This document shows, one piece after another, positions 23,509 through 38,934 of a stretch of DNA of 64,000 bases (position 1 is its first letter; each line of letters begins with the position of its first letter). The notes under the pieces were generated by a model. It was not told where the DNA came from. It did no database searches and worked only from the letters and a program-made list of their open reading frames with translations. Origin of the DNA: Synechococcus sp. BIOS-E4-1. Its GTDB lineage: Bacteria > Cyanobacteriota > Cyanobacteriia > PCC-6307 > Cyanobiaceae. A program made the position numbers and the translations under genes. The stretch is taken from NCBI RefSeq assembly GCF_014279995.1, contig NZ_CP047935.1, positions 469,243 to 533,242 on the forward strand. Direction: 5' to 3'.

Positions 23509-25716
23509 ATGGCAACGAAATTTCCTTCGTTCAGCCAGGGTCTGGCACAGGACCCGACAACCCGCCGCATCTGGTACGGGATCGCCACGGCTCACGACTT
23601 CGAGAGCCATGACGGAATGACGGAGGAGAGGCTTTACCAAAAGCTCTTCTCCACCCATTTCGGGCATCTCGCAATCATCGGTCTCTGGGTTTCGGGAAAC
23701 CTGTTCCATATCGCCTGGCAGGGCAACTTTGAACAGTGGGTCGCCGACCCTCTGCACGTGAAGCCCATTGCTCACGCAATCTGGGATCCCCATTTCGGTC
23801 AAGGCGCCATTACCGCCTTCACCCAAGCGGGAGCCACATCGCCAGTGAACATCGCCTACTCAGGCCTGTACCACTGGTTCTACACAATCGGCATGACGAA
23901 GAACGCCGAGCTGTATCAGGGATCCATCTTCATGATGATCCTGTCGGCCTGGGCATTGTTCGCCGGTTGGCTGCACCTGCAGCCCAAGTTCCGCCCGTCA
24001 CTTGCATGGTTCAAAAATGCTGAGTCACGTCTGAACCATCACCTGGCAGTCCTCTTCGGTTTCAGCTCCATCGCCTGGACAGGTCACCTGGTGCACGTGG
24101 CGATTCCTGAATCCAGGGGTCAGCACGTCGGGTGGGACAACTTCCTGAGCGTGATGCCTCACCCCGCCGGTCTTGGACCTTTCTTCACCGGCAACTGGGG
24201 TGTGTATGCACAGAATCCTGATTCCGCGGGTCAAATCTTCGGTACGGCCGAAGGCTCTGGAACTGCGATTCTCACCTTCCTCGGTGGCTTCCATCCTCAG
24301 ACAGAAGCTCTCTGGCTCACTGACATCGCCCATCACCACCTGGCGATTGGTTGCCTGTTTGTGATCGCTGGTCACATGTACAGGACCAACTTCGGTATCG
24401 GACACTCCATCAAGGAGATCCTCGAAGCTCATAACCCTCCCAAGGGCACTCCCGGTGATCTCGGCGCTGGCCACAAGGGTCTTTACGACACCTTGAACAA
24501 CAGCCTGCACATGCAGCTCGGCCTTGCTCTTGCTTCCCTGGGTGTGGTCACCTCCCTGGTGGCACAACACATGTATGCGATGCCGTCGTATGCCTTCATC
24601 GCCAAGGCCTATACGACACAGGCTGCTCTATACACGCACCACCAGTACATCGCCATCTTCCTGATGTGCGGTGCCTTTGCTCACGGAGCGATCTTCTTCA
24701 TCCGTGACTACGACCCCGAAGCCAACAAGGACAATGTCCTGGCCAGGATGCTGGAGCACAAGGAAGCGATCATCAGCCACCTGAGCTGGATCACCCTCTT
24801 CCTTGGCTTCCATACGCTTGGTCTCTACGTTCACAACGATGTTGTTGTGGCGTTCGGAACACCTGAGAAGCAGATTCTGGTTGAGCCCGTCTTTGCCCAG
24901 TTCGTTCAAGCCGCTTCCGGTAAGGCGATCTACGGTTTCGACGTTCTTCTCTCCAATTCCGCTGGTGCTGCAGCCAATGCCAACGCTGCCTACATGGGTG
25001 GCTGGATGGATGCCATCAACGGCAACACCGACGTGTTCTTGCCGATCGGTCCTGGTGACTTCATGGTTCACCACGCCATCGCTCTGGGTCTGCACACCAC
25101 CACTCTGATCCTGGTCAAAGGCGCGCTGGATGCTCGTGGCTCCAAGCTGATGCCTGACAAAAAGGACTTCGGTTACTCCTTCCCCTGTGACGGCCCTGGC
25201 CGAGGCGGTACTTGTGACATCTCTGCCTGGGACGCCTTCTATCTGGCCGTCTTCTGGGCCCTGAACACAATCGGTTGGGTCACCTTCTACTGGCATTGGA
25301 AGCACCTGGCCATCTGGCAGGGCAACGTCGCTCAGTTCAATGAGTCCAGCACCTACCTGATGGGCTGGTTCCGTGACTACCTGTGGCTGAATTCCTCCCA
25401 GCTGATCAACGGTTACAACCCCTTCGGCAGCAACAACCTCGCCGTCTGGGCCTGGATGTTCCTGTTCGGCCACCTCGTCTGGGCGACTGGATTCATGTTC
25501 CTGATCTCCTGGCGTGGTTACTGGCAGGAGCTGATCGAGACCATCGTCTGGGCTCATCAGCGCACACCGCTCGCCAACCTTGTTGGCTGGCGCGACAAGC
25601 CAGTGGCTCTGTCCATCGTTCAGGCTCGTGTTGTGGGTCTCGCCCACTTCACGATCGGCTACATCCTCACGTATGCAGCCTTCCTGATCGCATCGACATC
25701 CGGCAAGTTCGGCTGA
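23509..25716 (+). CDS. psaB: Photosystem I P700 apoprotein A2
   Basis: The partner of PsaA in the PSI heterodimer. The 735-residue protein starts [20 protein letters not shown] and has the Fx loop [31 protein letters not shown] and [25 protein letters not shown]. It ends with [21 protein letters not shown] terminator follows at 25757, so psaA-psaB is a bicistronic unit. Confidence 0.98.
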
Positions 25717-26757: not shown

Positions 26758-26910
26758 GCCGTGACGTCTCAGCGCTTAAAGGAGCACACACCTTACAAAT
26801 CGCTGGACCCTGACTTCGTATGCAAAGCGTCATTGTTTCGACCGATCTCAGTCACGTTTTGACCCTGCCGTTCGTGTCTACTGGTCCATCACCGATTGGT
26901 TGAGTCCTTG

Positions 26911-27219
26911 ATGTCGCTTCCTTCCCTGCCCCCCAAACTGGAGCTCGTGGTGCTGCTGGTTGGCGTCGCGGCCGGTTACAACCTCACCATGCAGATCCTG
27001 CCAAGAGAGCGAATCGACCTGGCTCAGCTTGAGGCGGAGGAACGTACCCAGAGGCCTGCGGTTTTTCCTGCACCCCTTCGATCGCCTCAATTAAATGCGA
27101 CTCAGCAGACCGTCCCTGTTCAGTCTGTAGAGAAGAGGTCTATGTTTGCCTCCGGCGAGTCCTGTGCGATTCCTCCAGGTGGAGGTCCTGCACTCAACCA
27201 ACGCTTCGAGCCTTGTTGA
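26911..27219 (+). CDS. Small single-pass membrane protein, unknown
   Basis: A 102-residue protein not recognised. From ATG 26911 it starts MSLPSLPPKLELVVLLVGVAAGYNLTM, with one hydrophobic helix at about residues 10-25. A charged stretch RERIDLAQLEAEERTQ follows, then a Pro/Ser-rich tail with two cysteines. A TTG five codons earlier is possible. It is convergent with the lanthipeptide synthetase gene, 10 bases apart. Whether it belongs to that cluster cannot be told. Confidence 0.55.
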   Translation: MSLPSLPPKLELVVLLVGVAAGYNLTMQILPRERIDLAQLEAEERTQRPAVFPAPLRSPQLNATQQTVPVQSVEKRSMFASGESCAIPPGGGPALNQRFEPC

Positions 27220-27229
27220 ACGAAAGCAC

Positions 27230-30200
27230 TTAGTTCGGCCATAGCCCTGCAGTTAGCAGGCTGTTGAGCATGCGCTCCGACCGTTCATTGCCGAGCAGTG
27301 CCATCCCCATGCCGCTGAGACCGTTGAAGAAACCTGGGAGTGTGAGGTTTCCCTCGGGTGTCCCGAGGCAGATCAAATCGGGTGGGTCTTGCCCCACCCT
27401 GTTCAGCACATCCGTTTCGATGGCCTTGATGCTTTGTTGGCAATGCTCACTTAAGGCTGTGGGGATCGGCCAGGGACCTGACAGAAGCATTCGCATGATG
27501 GCAATGAGACCTAAGGATCCACAGCACAGATGGTCCGCATGGGTGAGTTGACTCTGAGCGGTGTTTCTGATTGCTGTGTGTAGCTCGTTCTCGCAGTCCT
27601 CATCCCACAGAGGTGTTCCCCAGAGGCAGGCTCGGCCCAGAGCAATCCCGGGAGCTCCATGGCACCAGGTGCTGGTACAGACCTGCTTGGGCTGACCGGT
27701 TTGGTCGGTTTGGTCCCGGCGCAGGTCGAGCCAGTTCCCTTGGTCAGGCACGAAGTGCCGTCGCTCATAGCCCAGTGCACGGCATGCCGCGTCCAGCAGT
27801 CGGGTGTCACCGTTGTGAGCGTGCAACCGAGTTAGTGATGCCGCAATTCCAGCAGTTCCATGGGAGAAGCCGAGCATGCCCGGCCGCATCGGTATATCCC
27901 TCCAGCTGCCATCAGGATCCTGCGCTTCCAACAGTCGCTCACCGCAGACGCTGGCCAGTCCCAGGCTCTGATCACTCTGGATGGCGAGCAAGGGGCCGAT
28001 TAGGCCGGCGACACCTCCAATTAGATCAAACTGACGATCGCGCCTGAGGTAGTCCGCGCGAGCTTCGCTCATGAGTCCATCGAGGATCCGCGTCGCGTTG
28101 CTTTGACCCTGTTCACCCATCAGTTGCAGAGCTAGGAGCATCCCACCGCAGCCCATCAGCCCTTTGGCCTGATCACGCCACCAGCGCAAACGACCATCCC
28201 GACGATTCTGGTCACAGAGCGTTTGCAACGGTTTGAGCACTGCTCGTTCAAAAGAGTTCTCCTGGCCGTCGCCTCGCCAGGCTCGCAGCAGACAGCCGAT
28301 GCCGATCGAACCGCCGTACAGCTCGGATCCCACGGGACCGAAGGTGAAGCCTTCACCATCCTCACCAATGTTCATCCCCAGCCACTCGGAGCTGCCGTCT
28401 GGATCGGTGATGGCGCTGTTTTTTAATTGCTCAATGAGCCGTTCCACCGCTGCTTCTTGAGTCAGGCTTGGGCTTTGATCCGATAGCGATTTGGATGTGT
28501 CTCCCGCCGTGATCAGCTGCGATTCGCTGAATTCAGGTGTTTGTTCTCCCAGGAAGCGGGCTTCGCAGGCGCCTCGGATCAACTTCAGCTGAAACTCCAG
28601 TTCCTGCTCTTCCATCTGCTTGAGCCGAATCCGTGCCGCATTGAGTCCACTGGTGCGGATGAACCCCTGTAGTTCGGATCCCTGTTGATCCAGGATCAGA
28701 TCACAGCTATCGATGCGATGCTCGAAGTAGGGAACATCCAGTTGTTCCAGCTGGCGCACCTCCGCGGCAAAGATTGGCCAGTGCTGAGGAACCTGGTCGG
28801 CGAGCAGGAAACTTCTGGCCAGTTGTTCCTGCTTCATGGCCTGCTGAATCGGTGAGCGCAAGGCATCGGCTTGAAGCTGCTGGCGGAGGATCGTGGCGTA
28901 AACAGCCGTGGCTCGCAGCACGATTCGACGAGGCAGTCCGGTGAAACGTTGCAGAATCCCATCGTTTTGCAGCCATCGTTTTCGGCACTCGATCACGACA
29001 TGCCACTGATCAGTGAAGCCTTGAGTGAAGACATCCAGATGACGCGTGAAAGGATTGCGTTCTCCTATCCCCACCGGGAGACTTGTCGGCAACGTTGCTG
29101 GACGCATTAGTTGTCCTGGCATCATTCCGTCACTATTGAGCTCGACCCAGCCGGGCACCATGTGCTCCGCTGTTATGGGAGGAGTGGCCCCGAGCGCACT
29201 GATGTCTTGAGCACCATCACCGGTGAAGATCCAGCGTGGTAGTACACCTGTTCGGAGTACTGAATCGGCGATGCGATGCCTCAGGCTGCCGCGCTCGATC
29301 TGGGGCTCGCTGCGTGCTTCAGCAATGTGGTTTGGCAGCTCCGGTTCAAACAGTGTTTCGGTATCGATCAGCAGCAGCTGATCGCCTTCGGCGATCAGAT
29401 TCTCCTCATGGCAATCGGTGCAGCCAAGCAAATGGAGCATGGCCGTTATCCGGCCAGCATTGTGGTAAAAGCGATTCAGTTCATCGGGCGTGCGGCAGAG
29501 ACGGTGCTGCACCGCTTCCATCCAGCCATAGTTCTCACGACATAGCAGTTGGAGCGTACGTAGAGGCGGGAGCTTGCTGTGTTGGTTGAGGTCAGCCAGA
29601 GCCTCCTGCCAGGTGGCATCCAGGCGAAGATCCTTGGGCTTGTAAATCAGATGTTGCTCAGATGTTTCGTCGCCAAAGCTCAGCCGGATGACGCCGCGCC
29701 CTCCCCGGTGGGGATCGCTGAGTCCGGCCCTCAACCGGCTCAGTGGTGCCCCAATGCTGATTCCGAAGCGATTGGCAAGATCAGGTCGGTCGCCTTGAAG
29801 CCGGTTCAGCATTTCAAGAATGTTGGTTGGCCAGCGTTCAAGCAGATCGGCAAGGAGCTTTCCGAATACTGGATGCTGCTGCAGCAAAGACTTCAGTCCG
29901 TCTTGGCGTAAGTCCTGGATGAAACTCTGGTAGTACTCGCGCACTGGACCGTGCTGGCCGCTGCCGTCTGGGCCAAGCTGTGCAAGAAGCATGGTTCCCG
30001 ACCGACGTCCTTCCATGAACGGCTTCCAGAGCAGTTGCTCTCCGAGAAAAGACAGTCGGGCAATAAGGTTCCGCTCGAGATCGGCCCATGCGCTGTCTTG
30101 CAGGATCAGCTGAGGAAGAGTGCTTGATACCTGCTGACGCAGGTCGCTCATTATGAGCAGAGCGGCCGGATGCCAGAGGTCAACGAAGGGAAAGGCAAGT

Positions 30201-30550
30201 TGATGGAGTTGATCTCCCTCTAACAGGGGCTGATCCCAGCACTGTTGGAGTGATTTCTGGAGCCGTTTCAGTCGTTCAGTCCAGAGTGGGTGACAGGTGG
30301 AGGGGGACTCGCAGCTTTGGATCTGTGCGGCAATTCGTTCAGTCGCTAGACGATCCCATTGCAAACGCCGCTCGAGTTTGTGCGGTTCCTCCGGGCCCAG
30401 GGCTGCTTGCCAACTCATCCTGAGAGATTCAGGCAAGTCCTTCAAGTTGATGGTCGACGCGTTGCCATCAATTTCTCGGCATTCTTCAAGCAGAGTGTGG
30501 AAAGAAAGGCCTGGATCAGGATCCTTCCAATCAGTTGAGGCATCTGTCAT
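27230..30550 (-). CDS. lanM: Class II lanthipeptide synthetase LanM, ProcM-like
   Basis: A 1106-residue bifunctional enzyme that dehydrates Ser/Thr in a precursor core and then cyclises Cys onto the dehydro residues. The N-terminal dehydratase domain (to about 650) has the kinase-like blocks YKPKDLRLD (303-311), CTDCHEENLI (377-386) and LLIDTETLF (393-401). The C-terminal cyclase domain has FSHGTAGIA (His897), WCHGAPGIA (Cys963) and LCCGSLG (Cys1009, Cys1010). A CCG instead of CHG at the third site means three Cys zinc ligands, the signature of ProcM and its relatives, which have relaxed substrate specificity. Its start lies 45 bases after a precursor-like frame, and an intact precursor lies further upstream on the same strand. 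No LanT transporter/protease is nearby. Confidence 0.93.
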   Translation of the reverse strand: MTDASTDWKDPDPGLSFHTLLEECREIDGNASTINLKDLPESLRMSWQAALGPEEPHKLERRLQWDRLATERIAAQIQSCESPSTCHPLWTERLKRLQKSLQQCWDQPLLEGDQLHQLAFPFVDLWHPAALLIMSDLRQQVSSTLPQLILQDSAWADLERNLIARLSFLGEQLLWKPFMEGRRSGTMLLAQLGPDGSGQHGPVREYYQSFIQDLRQDGLKSLLQQHPVFGKLLADLLERWPTNILEMLNRLQGDRPDLANRFGISIGAPLSRLRAGLSDPHRGGRGVIRLSFGDETSEQHLIYKPKDLRLDATWQEALADLNQHSKLPPLRTLQLLCRENYGWMEAVQHRLCRTPDELNRFYHNAGRITAMLHLLGCTDCHEENLIAEGDQLLLIDTETLFEPELPNHIAEARSEPQIERGSLRHRIADSVLRTGVLPRWIFTGDGAQDISALGATPPITAEHMVPGWVELNSDGMMPGQLMRPATLPTSLPVGIGERNPFTRHLDVFTQGFTDQWHVVIECRKRWLQNDGILQRFTGLPRRIVLRATAVYATILRQQLQADALRSPIQQAMKQEQLARSFLLADQVPQHWPIFAAEVRQLEQLDVPYFEHRIDSCDLILDQQGSELQGFIRTSGLNAARIRLKQMEEQELEFQLKLIRGACEARFLGEQTPEFSESQLITAGDTSKSLSDQSPSLTQEAAVERLIEQLKNSAITDPDGSSEWLGMNIGEDGEGFTFGPVGSELYGGSIGIGCLLRAWRGDGQENSFERAVLKPLQTLCDQNRRDGRLRWWRDQAKGLMGCGGMLLALQLMGEQGQSNATRILDGLMSEARADYLRRDRQFDLIGGVAGLIGPLLAIQSDQSLGLASVCGERLLEAQDPDGSWRDIPMRPGMLGFSHGTAGIAASLTRLHAHNGDTRLLDAACRALGYERRHFVPDQGNWLDLRRDQTDQTGQPKQVCTSTWCHGAPGIALGRACLWGTPLWDEDCENELHTAIRNTAQSQLTHADHLCCGSLGLIAIMRMLLSGPWPIPTALSEHCQQSIKAIETDVLNRVGQDPPDLICLGTPEGNLTLPGFFNGLSGMGMALLGNERSERMLNSLLTAGLWPN

Positions 30551-30595
30551 CTCTCTAGGTTGATCAGCCCTGAGAATGCTGTCAATTTGTTGTTG

Positions 30596-30898
30596 TTAAC
30601 AACAACTGGGATATTGCTCGTAAATGTACGTTGCATGAAAAGCCGTGTGATGTTCTGTGTTGGCCGGGCGGTTACCAGAATCGTTCGCGGGGTTGCGCAT
30701 TCCGCTGCCATCGAGGGCTTCCAGTCCATGCTCCTCAAGTCTTGAGGTGTTGAGGTCTTGCAACTCCTGTTCTGTGGTTGCGAAGCCAGCTGTTGCTGCA
30801 AGCCTCGCAATCGCTGCATCGGTTGCATCATCGATCTTGGTTGGAATGTCTTGGCTACATGCGGCTTGAATTAAGAATTCTTCTCGTTGATCAATAAT
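30596..30898 (-). pseudogene. Second lanthipeptide precursor (NHLP leader) with ATT at the start position
   Basis: A 100-codon open frame read by hand on the minus strand and not reported by standard start-codon rules. It aligns without gaps to the intact precursor over its first ~66 residues (31 of 66 identical by my count), including LAATAGF versus LAAAAGF and TEQELQDLN versus TEKELRDLN. The position matching the initiator Met is ATT at 30898; no ATG, GTG or TTG lies in frame above the conserved part. The leader end reads LEALDGSG instead of LEALAGGAG. The ~35-residue core has Ser/Thr at 74, 81, 85, 90 and 98 and Cys only at 99-100, directly before TAA. It is either a decayed precursor that lost its start codon or one initiated at ATT. 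It lies directly upstream of lanM. Confidence 0.7.
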
Positions 30899-31164
30899 CC
30901 TGAGAGAATTTAAGCCTTTTTGTGAACATCAGCTGTTTGCTGCATGACGCTTGCATGTTGTCATTGTTCTTTTCACGTGGGCTGTTGGGGATGCAACCAT
31001 GTCGCAAAAAAAATTGAATTGTATTTTTTCTGTATCCTTGCTTTTTGTATTCAAAGCTTGGAAAGCCGATGTTACATTAAGCCAATCATGTGGCTACGTT
31101 GTTGAATGATTAACATCGGCCGGTATCTTATTGCTTTATTGATCGGCGGTCGCCGTTTGGCGCG
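30899..31164. other. AT-rich spacer between the two precursor frames
   Basis: This 266-base spacer is visibly richer in A/T than its surroundings. I found no further leader-like frame on either strand. It contains the inverted repeat listed at 31065-31120 and an A8 run at 31006-31013. Confidence 0.5.
31065..31120 (-). other. Long-loop inverted repeat downstream of the lanthipeptide precursor
   Basis: GCCGATGTTA (31065-31074) is exactly reverse-complementary to TAACATCGGC (31111-31120). Inside the 36-base loop, AGCC (31080-31083) can pair with GGCT (31092-31095). It begins 45 bases after the precursor stop. No strong U-run follows on the minus strand, so it could be an attenuator or mRNA-end structure that separates precursor from lanM expression. 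Confidence 0.5.
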
Positions 31165-31434
31165 TCACCCGCCACAGCCAGACCAGCATGCACACTTGGT
31201 ATAGCAGGTTGTGTGGTACTTGGTGTAATCATCACCAGCACCGCCAGCCAAAGCTTCCAATTCTTTCTCGCTCAGATTGGAAGCATTCAGATCCCTTAAT
31301 TCCTTCTCTGTGATTGTGAAGCCTGCGGCAGCTGCCAATGAGATGATCTCTGCGTCGCTGGCATTTTGGATCTTGGACCGCAACGTTGCGTCTGAGGCGA
31401 CCTTGGCCTTAAAGCCTTCGATTTGGCTGCTCAT
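31165..31434 (-). CDS. Lanthipeptide precursor, NHLP-type leader (prochlorosin-like)
   Basis: An 89-residue precursor peptide. Residues 1-65 form a nitrile-hydratase-like leader (MSSQIEGFKAKV..., LAAAAGFTITEKELRDLN, SEKELEALAGG) ending in the Gly-Gly cleavage site at 64-65. The 24-residue core has Thr/Ser at 71, 75, 76, 79 and 85 and Cys at 77, 81, 83 and 87, so up to four thioether rings are possible. This design is that of the prochlorosins of marine picocyanobacteria, modified by ProcM-like LanM. The cognate enzyme is encoded ~600 bases downstream on the same strand. The peptide's role is unknown. Confidence 0.9.
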   Translation of the reverse strand: MSSQIEGFKAKVASDATLRSKIQNASDAEIISLAAAAGFTITEKELRDLNASNLSEKELEALAGGAGDDYTKYHTTCYTKCACWSGCGG

Positions 31435-31573
31435 TTTGGAGAAGTTGTATCGATGAACCTTTAATTCTTAGCTGAGATGGCCGTGAGATTGTTCATAACT
31501 CTGGGTTTTTTAAGGGATGAAGCCATTGACCTGAGACGCATTGATGAGGCCTTGAATCCGGTCACGCCGCCTT

Positions 31574-34500
31574 TCAGCCATCCAGTTCAAGGATCGCAGG
31601 ACCGACGCCTCTCCAGCGTTTGAACAGCAGATAGGTGGCCGGCACGATGAACAGCGAGAGCAGCGTTGACACCAGCAGTCCGCTGAAGACAACGGTGCCG
31701 ATGCTGATGCGGCTGGCGGAACCTGTTCCGGTGGCAAGCAGCAATGGCAGAAATCCCGCCAGCGATGTCACCGCTGTCAGCAGAATCGGCCTCATTCTGT
31801 TGATCGCCGCTTCCTCGATGGCATCGATCAGGGCGGTGCCCTGGGCAAGCCGTTGGTTGGCGAATTCAACAATCAGGATTCCATTCTTTGCGGCCAGGCT
31901 GACCAGCACCAGCAAGCCCATCTGGGCGAAGACGTCGAGCGTGAGACTGCGCAGCTTCAGGCCGATCAAGGCTCCCAGCAGTGCCATCGGCACTGTGAGC
32001 AGGATGATCAGCGGATCCACAAAGCTTTCATAGAGGCCCGCCAGCAACAGATACACCACCGTGACGCCAAGGCCGAACAGCACCCAGGTCACGGATTCCG
32101 CTCGGGTCTCCTCTCTGGCAAGACCGGTGAAGGCCAGGCCCAGGTTGTTGCCTCCGGTCCGATCACTGATCGCCTGAAGGAGATCGATGGCCTGGCCACT
32201 GCTGAACCCATCTGAAGGGATGGCCGTGATGCTGATCGATCGCTTCTGGTTGTAATGGGTGATTCGATTCGCTCCTGAATCACGTTTCAGTTGCGCAACG
32301 TTCGCCAATGAGACCAGGTCGCCGCTGCGGTTGCGCACCATCAGGCTCGTGAGATCTCCAGGCTTGCTGCGGTCAGTTCCCTCAAGCTGGATGTAGATGC
32401 TGCGGATTTCCCCCCCTGAGAAGGTGTCATCGATGAAACGGCCTCCAATGGCGGTTCCGATGTCCCTGAGAGTCGGACCCACCGGTAGGTCCAGCGCTGC
32501 CATCTGGCTGCGGTCAAGCTCCAGTCTCCAGCGCGGTGAGTTTGCATCGAAGCGCGTGCTCACGCGCTGGAACTGCCTGGAGTTCTGAGCAGCCAGGATG
32601 AACTGCTGGGCCTGATTCTCGAAATCCTGCAGGCTGAGCTGGCCGCCACTGCGATCCAGCAGTTCCATCTGCAGGCCTGATTCGCTGCTGAAACCCTGCA
32701 CCGTGGGCGGCGTGGTCACAATCACCTGGGCGTCGGTGATGCGTCGTCTCAGTTCGCTGTTCAGACGCTGCTTCACGGCTTGACTGCTGTTCTGCCGCCC
32801 TGGGCGTTCTTTCAGGGGTGAGAGGCGTAGATAGAAAGACCCGGTGTCCTCGCCGCTCTGTCCGAATGAGCTTCCGGCATAAAAATTGCCGCTGCGGATC
32901 AGGGGCTCTTCAGCGACGACCTCGCGGATGCGTTCCATCACAGCCTCGGTACGTTCCAGGCTTGCCCCTTCCGGCAGCGTGAAATAACCGCGCACCTGCC
33001 CCTGATCTTCGTCGGGGATGAAGGAGGTGGGGATCGTCGCCAGACCAATGCCGGTGAGCATCAGTCCTGCCAGCACCAGCGCGATCACGGTTCTACCCCG
33101 TGCCAGCCAGACCGCCAGCATCCTTGCGTAAAGACGTTGCAACCGGGCCATGCCCGCACGCAGACTTCGACTGATCAATCTGAACGGTGCTGGCAATCGT
33201 CCGTCGCCTTTTCCCAGCACACGGGCGCAGGCCATCGGAGTGAACGTGAGGGCATTGAACGTTGAGAACAGAATTGCGCCGCTGATGGCCAGTGCAATCG
33301 GTTGATACAGGCGGCCGATGGAGCCAGGGATCAGCAGAACAGGCAGAAAGACAGCAGCCAGAACCAGAGATGTGGCTAAAACTGCGCCCGCAAGCTCTGC
33401 CATCGCATCTTCCGCAGCCCCCTGTGGCTCTTCGCCCCGTTCGATCCGGCCTGCGATGTCTTCGCTGACAACGATGGCATCGTCGACAACGATGCCCGTG
33501 GCCAGCACGAGGCCGAACAGGATCAGGCTGTTGAGATTCGACCCGCTCAGGCGCACCACCACCAGACTGCCGATCAACGCCACAGGCACCGCCAGGCCAG
33601 GAATCAAGGCCAGACGCCAGCGTCCCAGAAACAGCACCAGCACCACCAGCACCAGCAGCACCGCGTCCCGGAGGGTGTCTCTGGTGCGATCGAGATTGGC
33701 CTGGACGTTTTCGGCCACATCAAAGATCATCTGCACGTCCAACCCAGGGGGAAAGCTGCTTTCCAGGCTTTTCAGCCTCTCCCGAACCGCACGACTGACC
33801 TCCAGAGCGTTCGATCCATCCCGCTGGAAGATGCCGACAGCCACTGAGCTTTCGCCCTGAAGATTGAGCGCGCTGCTGCCGTAGTTGCGTTGGCCCAGCT
33901 CAACGCGACCTACATCCTTCAGACGAACCAGGCCTCCGTTGCTGGTGCGTTTCACCACCATGGCTTCAAAGTCGGCCTTGCTGCGCAGACGCCCTTCGGC
34001 ATCCACCGGCAGGCTGAACAGCTGTCCCGCCGGAGCCGGCGCCTCGCCCAGGTTTCCCACTGCGGCAAGAACGTTCTGCTCTGCCAGAGCGGCGGTGATG
34101 TCGTTGGTGGACAGACTGAATTGCTCCAGGAGACTCGGATCCAGCCAGAGGCGGTAGGCGAGCTCGCTACTGCCGAACACACGGATGTCGCCAACCCCAG
34201 GCGTGGTTCGCAGGCCTTCACTGAGGCGTTGGTCGAGCCAGCCACCGATGAAGATCGGCTCATACATCCCGGGAGGAGCGCTGAAGCCGAGGATCAGCAG
34301 CAGGTCATTGCTGGAGCGGTTCACATTCAGCCCCTGTCTGGTGACTGACTGGGGCAGTCGACGGCTGGCCAGGTTGACTTCGTTCTGAACCTTGATCGCG
34401 TTGAGCTCTGGATCGCCTGACTCGAAGCGCAGGCTGAGGCTGGCTCCGCCCTGCCTGCTGCTGGAGGTCATGCTCTCCAGGCCATCCAGGCCACTGAGCT

Positions 34501-34711
34501 GTTTTTCCAGCACTGATGTGACGCTTTGCTCCACCACTTCAGGGCCTGCGGCAGGAAAACTGGCGCTCACGCTCACGCGGGTGGGTGCCAGTTGAGGCAG
34601 GTCTTCAAGGCCGAGGCCCACCAGAGACACCACCCCAGCCAACAGCACCAACAAGCTGCAGACGATGGTGAAGACGGGCCGTCTCAGAAATGGCTGGGAG
34701 ATGGACCGCAA
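31574..34711 (-). CDS. RND efflux transporter, AcrB/HAE1 family
   Basis: A 1045-residue proton-driven inner-membrane pump. It begins RSISQPFLRRPVFTIVCSLLVLLAGVVSLVGLGLEDLP, the typical first helix. The periplasmic porter regions follow. The central helices have VVLVLFLGRWRLALIPGLAVP, the LATGIVVDDAIVVSED proton-relay segment with paired Asp, and the C-terminal half has MGLLVLVSLAAKNGILIVEFANQ and EAAINRMRPILLTAVTSL. The start is TTG 34711. No membrane-fusion adaptor or outer-membrane gene is adjacent. It is upstream of, and on the same strand as, the lanthipeptide precursor (139 bases between). Confidence 0.93.
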   Translation of the reverse strand: MRSISQPFLRRPVFTIVCSLLVLLAGVVSLVGLGLEDLPQLAPTRVSVSASFPAAGPEVVEQSVTSVLEKQLSGLDGLESMTSSSRQGGASLSLRFESGDPELNAIKVQNEVNLASRRLPQSVTRQGLNVNRSSNDLLLILGFSAPPGMYEPIFIGGWLDQRLSEGLRTTPGVGDIRVFGSSELAYRLWLDPSLLEQFSLSTNDITAALAEQNVLAAVGNLGEAPAPAGQLFSLPVDAEGRLRSKADFEAMVVKRTSNGGLVRLKDVGRVELGQRNYGSSALNLQGESSVAVGIFQRDGSNALEVSRAVRERLKSLESSFPPGLDVQMIFDVAENVQANLDRTRDTLRDAVLLVLVVLVLFLGRWRLALIPGLAVPVALIGSLVVVRLSGSNLNSLILFGLVLATGIVVDDAIVVSEDIAGRIERGEEPQGAAEDAMAELAGAVLATSLVLAAVFLPVLLIPGSIGRLYQPIALAISGAILFSTFNALTFTPMACARVLGKGDGRLPAPFRLISRSLRAGMARLQRLYARMLAVWLARGRTVIALVLAGLMLTGIGLATIPTSFIPDEDQGQVRGYFTLPEGASLERTEAVMERIREVVAEEPLIRSGNFYAGSSFGQSGEDTGSFYLRLSPLKERPGRQNSSQAVKQRLNSELRRRITDAQVIVTTPPTVQGFSSESGLQMELLDRSGGQLSLQDFENQAQQFILAAQNSRQFQRVSTRFDANSPRWRLELDRSQMAALDLPVGPTLRDIGTAIGGRFIDDTFSGGEIRSIYIQLEGTDRSKPGDLTSLMVRNRSGDLVSLANVAQLKRDSGANRITHYNQKRSISITAIPSDGFSSGQAIDLLQAISDRTGGNNLGLAFTGLAREETRAESVTWVLFGLGVTVVYLLLAGLYESFVDPLIILLTVPMALLGALIGLKLRSLTLDVFAQMGLLVLVSLAAKNGILIVEFANQRLAQGTALIDAIEEAAINRMRPILLTAVTSLAGFLPLLLATGTGSASRISIGTVVFSGLLVSTLLSLFIVPATYLLFKRWRGVGPAILELDG

Positions 34712-34839: not shown

Positions 34840-35331
34840 TCAGCCTGCGGGCGCTACACCACCAGCGATCTTGGCCAGATAGAGCAATGGAGTTGCGCTG
34901 ACCAGGAACCATGCAAAAGCCGCTCCTCCGCAACCACCCAGCCAGAAGCCACTGGCAAATTCAGACCAGCCTTCCTTGGTGAAGAGGTCTGACGGTGGAT
35001 TGTTGATGGTGGCGTCAGCCGGTTGCACCTTGGGTCCGTTGCCAGCGGTGCCGTAGATCGACAGACACACAGTCAGGATCGACACCAATCCGATGGAGGC
35101 CAGCAATCCTGCCGTTGATGCGTAATCGCTGTTTCGGAGAGGACCACAGACGGCGAAAGGGCCATACAGCAAATACCCATGGGTCATGCCAATCTCCAGG
35201 CCGCGTCTGTTCGGCGAGAGAGAAGGTCGATAGATCGGTAGCGCGTTGAGAAACGCCTTGGTGAAGTAGTTGCTGTTCACCGGGGTGGCGAGGTTGCCAA
35301 CCGTTGGATCAGCGACGGGGGAAACAGACAT
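34840..35331 (-). CDS. psaL: Photosystem I subunit XI
   Basis: PsaL holds PSI trimers together in cyanobacteria. The 163-residue protein begins [23 protein letters not shown] and contains the family blocks [33 protein letters not shown] and [21 protein letters not shown]. Hydrophobic helices lie in the [20 protein letters not shown] and [21 protein letters not shown] regions. It lies 58 bases after psaI on the same strand. Confidence 0.96.
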
Positions 35332-38790: not shown

Positions 38791-38811
38791 CGACTCGCTG
38801 TTTCAGTTCAA

Positions 38812-38900
38812 CGGAGAGGGAGGGATTCGAACCCTCGACAGAAGTTGCCTCCTGTAACTCCTTAGCAGGGAGCCGCTTTCAACCACTCAGCCACCTCTCC
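38812..38900 (-). tRNA. tRNA-Ser (anticodon GCT)
   Basis: An 89-base class II tRNA on the minus strand. The acceptor stem GGAGAGG pairs with CCTCTCC, with discriminator G. The anticodon loop CTGCTAA gives GCT (Ser AGC/AGU). A long variable arm follows and the T arm is GGGTTCGAATCCC. CCA is not encoded. Confidence 0.95.
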
Positions 38901-38934
38901 AGCGGCCCGCCCACCCTATCAAGAGGGTGACCGT

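Follow-up and report, generated by a model that had tools for sequence, protein, structure and literature searches.

A prochlorosin-type lanthipeptide locus among the photosystem I genes of Synechococcus sp. BIOS-E4-1, with a divergent LanM and a divergent local leader

How does a lanthipeptide synthetase gene come to lie among photosystem I genes, and which peptides would its product modify? The question is raised by a stretch of 64,000 nucleotides from Synechococcus sp. BIOS-E4-1 (bases 469243-533242 of a single-contig genome of 3,314,220 bases; this whole stretch is called the window below). Here a gene for a class II lanthipeptide synthetase (LanM) and a precursor peptide gene sit between psaAB and psaL/psaI on the minus strand, exactly where an initial annotation, made from the DNA letters, had placed them. 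The locus is real, accessory and probably functional, new in its lineage and its place and known in kind. The likeliest reading of the sequences is that enzyme and substrate form a co-diverged, perhaps private pair. A fuller statement, to which we give about even credence, is that an accessory prochlorosin-type locus was gained, that its LanM acts on the local co-diverged precursor, and that the product is exported in trans.

Membership of the LanM class is evident from the domain content, since a DUF4135 dehydratase domain and a LanC-like cyclase domain (Pfam) are united in one open, uninterrupted protein, which scores 723 bits against TIGR03897 (cut-off 304, E 4.1e-217). In CylM, phosphorylation has been assigned to Lys274, Asp347, His349, Asn352 and Asp364, and elimination to Asp252, His254, Arg506 and Thr512 (structural passages of PMC4550811); the alignment places K304, D379, H381, N384 and D396 of the window enzyme opposite the former set and D279, H281, R542 and T548 opposite the latter. 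The CCG zinc site that had been read in this protein is also there, as WCHG...CCG, with C963, C1009 and C1010 as its cysteines. For Cys963 we presume the role of zinc ligand, by homology with ProcM. The CCG motif is named as a mark of ProcM-like enzymes in a passage of PMC10783134; LanMs of other cyanobacterial families were also checked for it, and all seven have it, so that the motif by itself does not single out ProcM. Judged by its conserved residues, the window enzyme looks able to work, its activity being a prediction from them.

The intact precursor gene has the features expected of the Nif11/prochlorosin class: a leader above the family cut-off (TIGR03798, 56.9 bits, cut-off 32.3, E 1.8e-15; Pfam Nif11, 38.4 bits, cut-off 23.8), a GG end to that leader, and a variable core carrying Ser/Thr and Cys. 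The leader had been labelled NHLP (nitrile hydratase leader peptide) in the initial annotation, and this label has to be rejected, because the Nif11 models match while no NHLP model (TIGR03793 included) matched up to E 0.1. The GG motif closing prochlorosin leaders is, in the wording of one passage of PMC10783134, "known as NHLP", and the term may stem from such looser usage. The core that follows GG, AGDDYTKYHTTCYTKCACWSGCGG, has the 24 residues, five Ser/Thr and four Cys that had been counted before, which would allow for up to four rings. At E <= 1e-8 the whole precursor matched eight of 200 other family genomes (best 41% identity), and these matches are of the same order as those within its own genome, where remote precursors align with it at up to 44% identity.

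A second open frame, lying between LanM and the intact gene, resembles the latter (43.8 bits, 50% identity), and the two local leaders are alike. Its own leader scores 21.9 bits against TIGR03798, under the cut-off; ATT stands where the start would be expected, DGSG takes the place of the GG site, and the C-terminus reads YPSCC. Having neither a usual start codon, nor a GG site, nor a score above the family cut-off, this frame is probably a decaying precursor; it may still use the unusual ATT start.

The position of these genes was compared with that in relatives by tblastn (E <= 1e-3), following a suggestion in the initial annotation that psaB-psaL synteny be examined. Of 30 other genomes of the genus, 27 had a psaL match and 24 were covered. 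At the threshold used, psaL found no counterpart in G300, G301 and G302; three genomes that did match psaL, namely G304, G305 and G306, are outside the set as well. LanM and both precursors are absent from the psaL region in 24/24 genomes, all of which keep the order psaA, psaB, AcrB, psaL without the block. A cupin gene was found in 22 of them and orf107, the left neighbour of the block, in 11; as orf107 was not found in the other 13, the exact junction can be compared in those 11 only. Specifically, the orf107 and AcrB stop codons are 2 bp apart in G283 and G303 and 3 bp apart in G271, against 4,354 bases in the window, and in G283 and G303, which are near relatives (PsaL 97-98% identical), flank homology stops around the orf107 stop codon and returns at the AcrB stop codon. 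That the block is accessory, as had been proposed, is strongly supported, none of the genomes examined having it; the case named beforehand as a refutation, a block shared by all relatives, is thereby not what was observed. The patchy distribution claimed for LanM is borne out at the family level, where 22 of 300 genomes have one above the family cut-off. From this we infer a gain in this lineage and not repeated loss elsewhere.

The means of arrival is less apparent. A mobile element as carrier finds no support, as no repeat joins the two block ends, no tRNA lies at the insertion site (the nearest is at 38811-38901) and no second copy of 30551-31573 was found in the genome; the block's other short open reading frames were not searched against families. 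A virus finds none either, LanM having no relative in viral contigs and the precursor none in phages, and no donor was found for the block. The flanks themselves are mixed: at the AcrB end (window 31574-32400) the DNA is 96% identical in G277 (L083) and 87-88% in G283 and G303, PsaL is nearer in G283/G303 (97-98%) than in G277 (89%), and there is little difference at the left flank. Such mixed identities hint at recombination at the insertion spot.

The same cell has another LanM (G000:2203102-2205987), which is adjoined by two ABC transporter genes, one of them with a C39 peptidase; two further genes beside it resemble export partners, judged by eye. Its counterparts in G277 and G271 share 88-90% identity with it, and we take it to be of the SyncM type on the strength of its relatives and of its zinc-ligand numbering. 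The window LanM is 43-44% identical to it. A scan for LanM that reached near relatives only had given no match, and the search of family and phylum genomes (400 and 386, two overlapping samples) gave relatives at 40-51% identity; the best, at 51%, is in G071, and also in G120 in the family sample, and relatives at E <= 1e-60 occur in 26 of the 400 family genomes. G071 is presumably Prochlorococcus MIT9313, the source of ProcM, an assumption that again draws in part on zinc-ligand numbering. In the tree the window LanM is sister to a nine-sequence clade that holds this presumed ProcM (bootstrap/Shimodaira-Hasegawa approximate likelihood-ratio test, SH-aLRT, 91/97), and a tree rooted on other cyanobacteria gives the same sister placement (SH-aLRT 97) on a long branch. 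The approximately unbiased (AU) test rejected a tree in which it joins the other LanM's clade (p-AU 0.0095), and tree and test together speak against a duplicate of the other LanM. By this phylogeny, the window enzyme belongs to a separate, highly diverged lineage.

The local leader is also unusual, and it has to be seen against a large repertoire. At least 150 other Nif11 leader matches above the family cut-off were found in one 3.3-Mb genome, a lower bound because 150 of 276 candidates were scored and all of these passed; many of the matches are closely spaced, and several have internal stop codons. A precursor census (distinct open frames in the window and 51 loci of its own genome, where genes at the end of a stretch may be double-counted or shortened) gave 173 matches; in 159 of these the frame extends to the leader end, and in 139 the leader is nearly complete. 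The family model gives the local leader 56.9 bits, lower than any of the genome's 150 listed leaders, which range from 68.7 to 97.5 bits. When a profile was made from leaders of this genome, the local one reached 43.2 bits and ranked 138th of the 139 near-complete leaders, whose median is 102; because the profile was seeded with 42 frames that have a canonical start, it puts divergent leaders at some disadvantage. The local leader is thus among the most divergent of the census. It is also the leader that the decayed frame resembles most, with a score of 132, whereas none of the other 138 scores above 81 to that frame. The pairing of enzyme and precursor rests on this decayed frame and on overall divergence, without a sharp score gap.

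The core peptide had been singled out as the novel part of the system, a claim that does not hold. Four Cys occur in 25 of the 159 census cores (the window's own counted) and five Cys in four, so a compact four-Cys core is ordinary in this genome; less ordinary are the separate lineage of the enzyme and the extent to which the local leader has diverged. Neither a novel nor a conserved core family is supported, four-Cys cores being common and the relatedness of cores not being established. A Cys-spacing pattern is found in five of 159 cores, against a mean of 0.3 and a maximum of 3 in 1,000 shuffles of the 29 cores with at least four Cys, but it was picked after the cores had been inspected and carries little weight. 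In an alignment test, the best single score of the core was equalled by 15 of 300 full shuffles and by 52 of 300 shuffles that kept Cys positions, and the sum of the top five by 2 and 18 of 300, respectively. The likeness of the local core to other cores of the genome is weak and suggestive only. When the core with seven leader residues was searched against 400 family genomes, three weak matches (E 0.008 with in-frame stops, 0.08 and 0.09) and no convincing core relative were obtained. As a separate observation, some remote precursors form pairs with clearly similar cores (L009/L111, L019/L115 and L008/L114, e.g. YISLEAGCLPPCCTRGACSTSRPL and YFSLEAGCKAPCCTIGACSTSRPL), which departs from the usual picture of unrelated cores.

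The steps that would join these observations can be set out as follows. A small prochlorosin-type locus would have been gained by horizontal transfer or recombination, landing between the stop codons of two convergent genes. On the local precursor, LanM would remove water from Ser/Thr and form (methyl)lanthionine rings, guided by a leader that diverged jointly with the enzyme. Cleavage after GG and export of the product would fall to a C39 exporter whose gene lies elsewhere in the genome. The initial annotation had remarked that no export protease is nearby, and this is right for the window, which has no C39 peptidase (three were found in the genome at E <= 0.001, all elsewhere); the C39 transporter beside the other LanM could serve the local product in trans. 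The ProcM-type system that had been described is real as regards a class II CCG synthetase with a precursor, but the second precursor frame and the genome-wide repertoire had been missed.

There is a second reading, one to which we give appreciable credence, though well short of even: the window LanM may be a second promiscuous ProcM-type enzyme acting on many or all of the 100-plus precursors, adding to or altering the products of the other LanM, with the local precursor as just one of its substrates. CCG enzymes are described as promiscuous in PMC10783134, the Nif11 leaders are as numerous as stated above, and the up to 44% identity of remote precursors to the local one would suit shared processing. 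Against it, the local leader falls far below the median of the genome's leaders (in the profile drawn from canonical leaders only), and 43-44% identity between the two LanMs suits separate specificity better. Several results count against the preferred reading of a gained locus with a co-diverged pair. The local leader scores 132 to the decayed frame yet 128 to its best remote leader, and among the other leaders the best score to one another is 255 in the median and 106 at the lowest, some remote leaders being equally isolated; exclusive pairing is therefore not required by sequence. The long branch of the window LanM leaves its exact placement unsure, the group used in the AU test was named after the trees had been seen, and neither a donor nor an end-joining repeat was detected for the block. 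Finally, the enzyme differs at 12 of 192 columns that are invariant among 22 other enzymes compared, which could reflect relaxed selection (other enzymes differ at 0 to 4 of these columns, and L072 at 44). The strict version of pairing, in which enzyme and leader have diverged until the two systems share no substrates, the other LanM serving well over a hundred, and a four-Cys peptide has one fixed function instead of belonging to a hypervariable set, we consider possible but doubtful, slightly more so than promiscuity.

Those 12 departures also lend something to an explanation that we regard as unlikely, namely that the locus is a decaying passenger, acquired, of no present use and heading for loss, with one precursor dead and the enzyme drifting. 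The lack of a usual start codon and of the GG site in the second precursor, the long LanM branch and the presence of the block in one of 25 genomes would all fit, whereas the 1106-residue enzyme frame without a stop, the retention of every checked catalytic residue and the intact precursor above the family cut-off would not; the departures are mostly conservative, and none hits a checked catalytic or zinc residue. The remaining possibility, that an ancestral locus was lost from the other members of the genus and nothing was inserted, is very improbable. With one carrier strain the direction is inferred, and LanM relatives do occur across the family, but the absence from 24/24 genomes and the 2-3-bp spacers in the nearest ones mean that many losses would be needed, several of them exact. 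A gained locus with a co-diverged, perhaps private pair is thus the reading that we prefer.

The features of the locus are collected in the table. Base composition changes along it, the interval between LanM and precursor (30551-31164) having 46.1% guanine plus cytosine (GC) against 59.5% for the window, which agrees with the AT-rich spacer noted at the outset; the block as a whole has 55.2% and its two neighbours 57.7% and 61.0%. The name psaB is assigned from the protein sequence.

Table. Coordinates (window positions) of the inserted block, its genes and motifs, and the neighbouring genes
Feature	Position	Strand	Basis or remark
Inserted block	27220..31573	.	4,354 bp between the stop codons of convergent orf107 and AcrB gene
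lanM, class II lanthipeptide synthetase, ProcM-type (CCG), 1106 aa	27230..30550	-	TIGR03897; Pfam DUF4135 and LANC_like
Cys1009-Cys1010 codons, CCG motif	27521..27526	-	Alignment position
Cys963 codon, inferred zinc ligand (WCHG)	27662..27664	-	Role by homology
Second precursor-like open frame, probably decayed, Nif11-type leader	30596..30898	-	ATT at start, DGSG at GG site
Intact precursor gene (89 aa: Nif11 leader of 65 aa with GG at its end, core of 24 aa)	31165..31434	-	Sequence, profile matches
Core peptide codons (5 Ser/Thr, 4 Cys)	31168..31239	-	Sequence
orf107, left neighbour of the insertion	26896..27219	+	45-63% identity in 11/24 other genomes
AcrB/RND transporter gene, right neighbour	31574..34711	-	Found without the block in 24/24 other genomes
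psaB, with psaA just upstream	23509..25716	+	Protein sequence; kept in 24/24 relatives examined
psaL	34840..35331	-	Pfam PsaL

Two further LanM-like loci were encountered along the way. In G213 (G213:C1:2313968-2316766, L077) a LanM is 24-25% identical over about 420-440 residues to three enzymes compared and shows WCRG instead of WCHG; in that genome there is, besides, a member of the clade to which the other LanM of BIOS-E4-1 belongs. In BIOS-E4-1 itself (G000:C1 about 1539826-1545941; L107:5827-11942), an 832-residue LanM-like protein has DUF4135 with no LanC-like domain listed, and a similar enzyme is present at G277:C12:385824-386948 (L079). Four precursor-like frames adjoin the 832-residue protein, with weak NHLP-type leaders, all below cut-off, and cores rich in Ser, Gly, Ala and Cys, and one of these frames scores 26.1 bits on a thiocillin-family model, barely above the cut-off of 25. 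This is a separate system for ribosomally synthesized and post-translationally modified peptides (RiPPs), in which the enzyme may dehydrate without closing rings.

For a strain spelled BIOS-E1-4, a passage of PMC10783134 reports a pair of ProcM-like enzymes, along with 143 putative precursors and two YcaO clusters, so that a second ProcM-like enzyme in this strain is already in print. BIOS-E4-1 is reported to have the largest gene number within the genome set described in PMC7522525, where the numbering of closed genomes starts 174 bp before dnaN; in the genome analysed here a protein taken for DnaN begins at about base 174. No account of the second LanM's place, lineage or leader was found by searches that covered open-licence papers. 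The function of prochlorosins is described as unknown in PMC10783134. Two ProcM-type enzymes of different lineages in one cell, one of them with a divergent local precursor, constitute a natural test of substrate choice set by the leader, and raise the testable question of whether one enzyme-substrate pair is private while the other LanM of the cell is, as is supposed, promiscuous. An orthogonal enzyme-leader pair, if true, would help to produce different ringed peptides in parallel, and the uninterrupted site in near relatives offers a comparison with and without the insertion.

Among known systems, the nearest is that of ProcM and the prochlorosins of Prochlorococcus MIT9313 (presumably G071), which shares with the window a class II LanM, the CCG zinc site and Nif11 leaders ending in GG, and whose presumed enzyme is the closest found, at 51% identity to the window LanM. 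The window enzyme differs in standing on a long separate branch outside the clade of the G071 enzyme, and its system differs in having one intact local precursor with a divergent leader and no C39 exporter in the window. SyncM and the synechococsins of CRD1 Synechococcus, for which the other LanM stands in this comparison (the name being our assumption), are found in the same cell and have the same enzyme class and leader family. Unlike that SyncM-type LanM with its adjoining ABC/C39 transporters, the window LanM, 43% identical to it, stands apart, a joint grouping being rejected. NHLP RiPP precursors resemble the window's in having a GG-type cleavage site after a long leader, but the window leader matches Nif11 models, and NHLP-like ones, below cut-off, lie elsewhere in the genome. 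LicM2 and CylM, the LanMs with solved structures, are of the same class as the window LanM and their catalytic residues align with it, although LicM2 has CHG where the window enzyme has CCG; these two enzymes serve one or two substrates.

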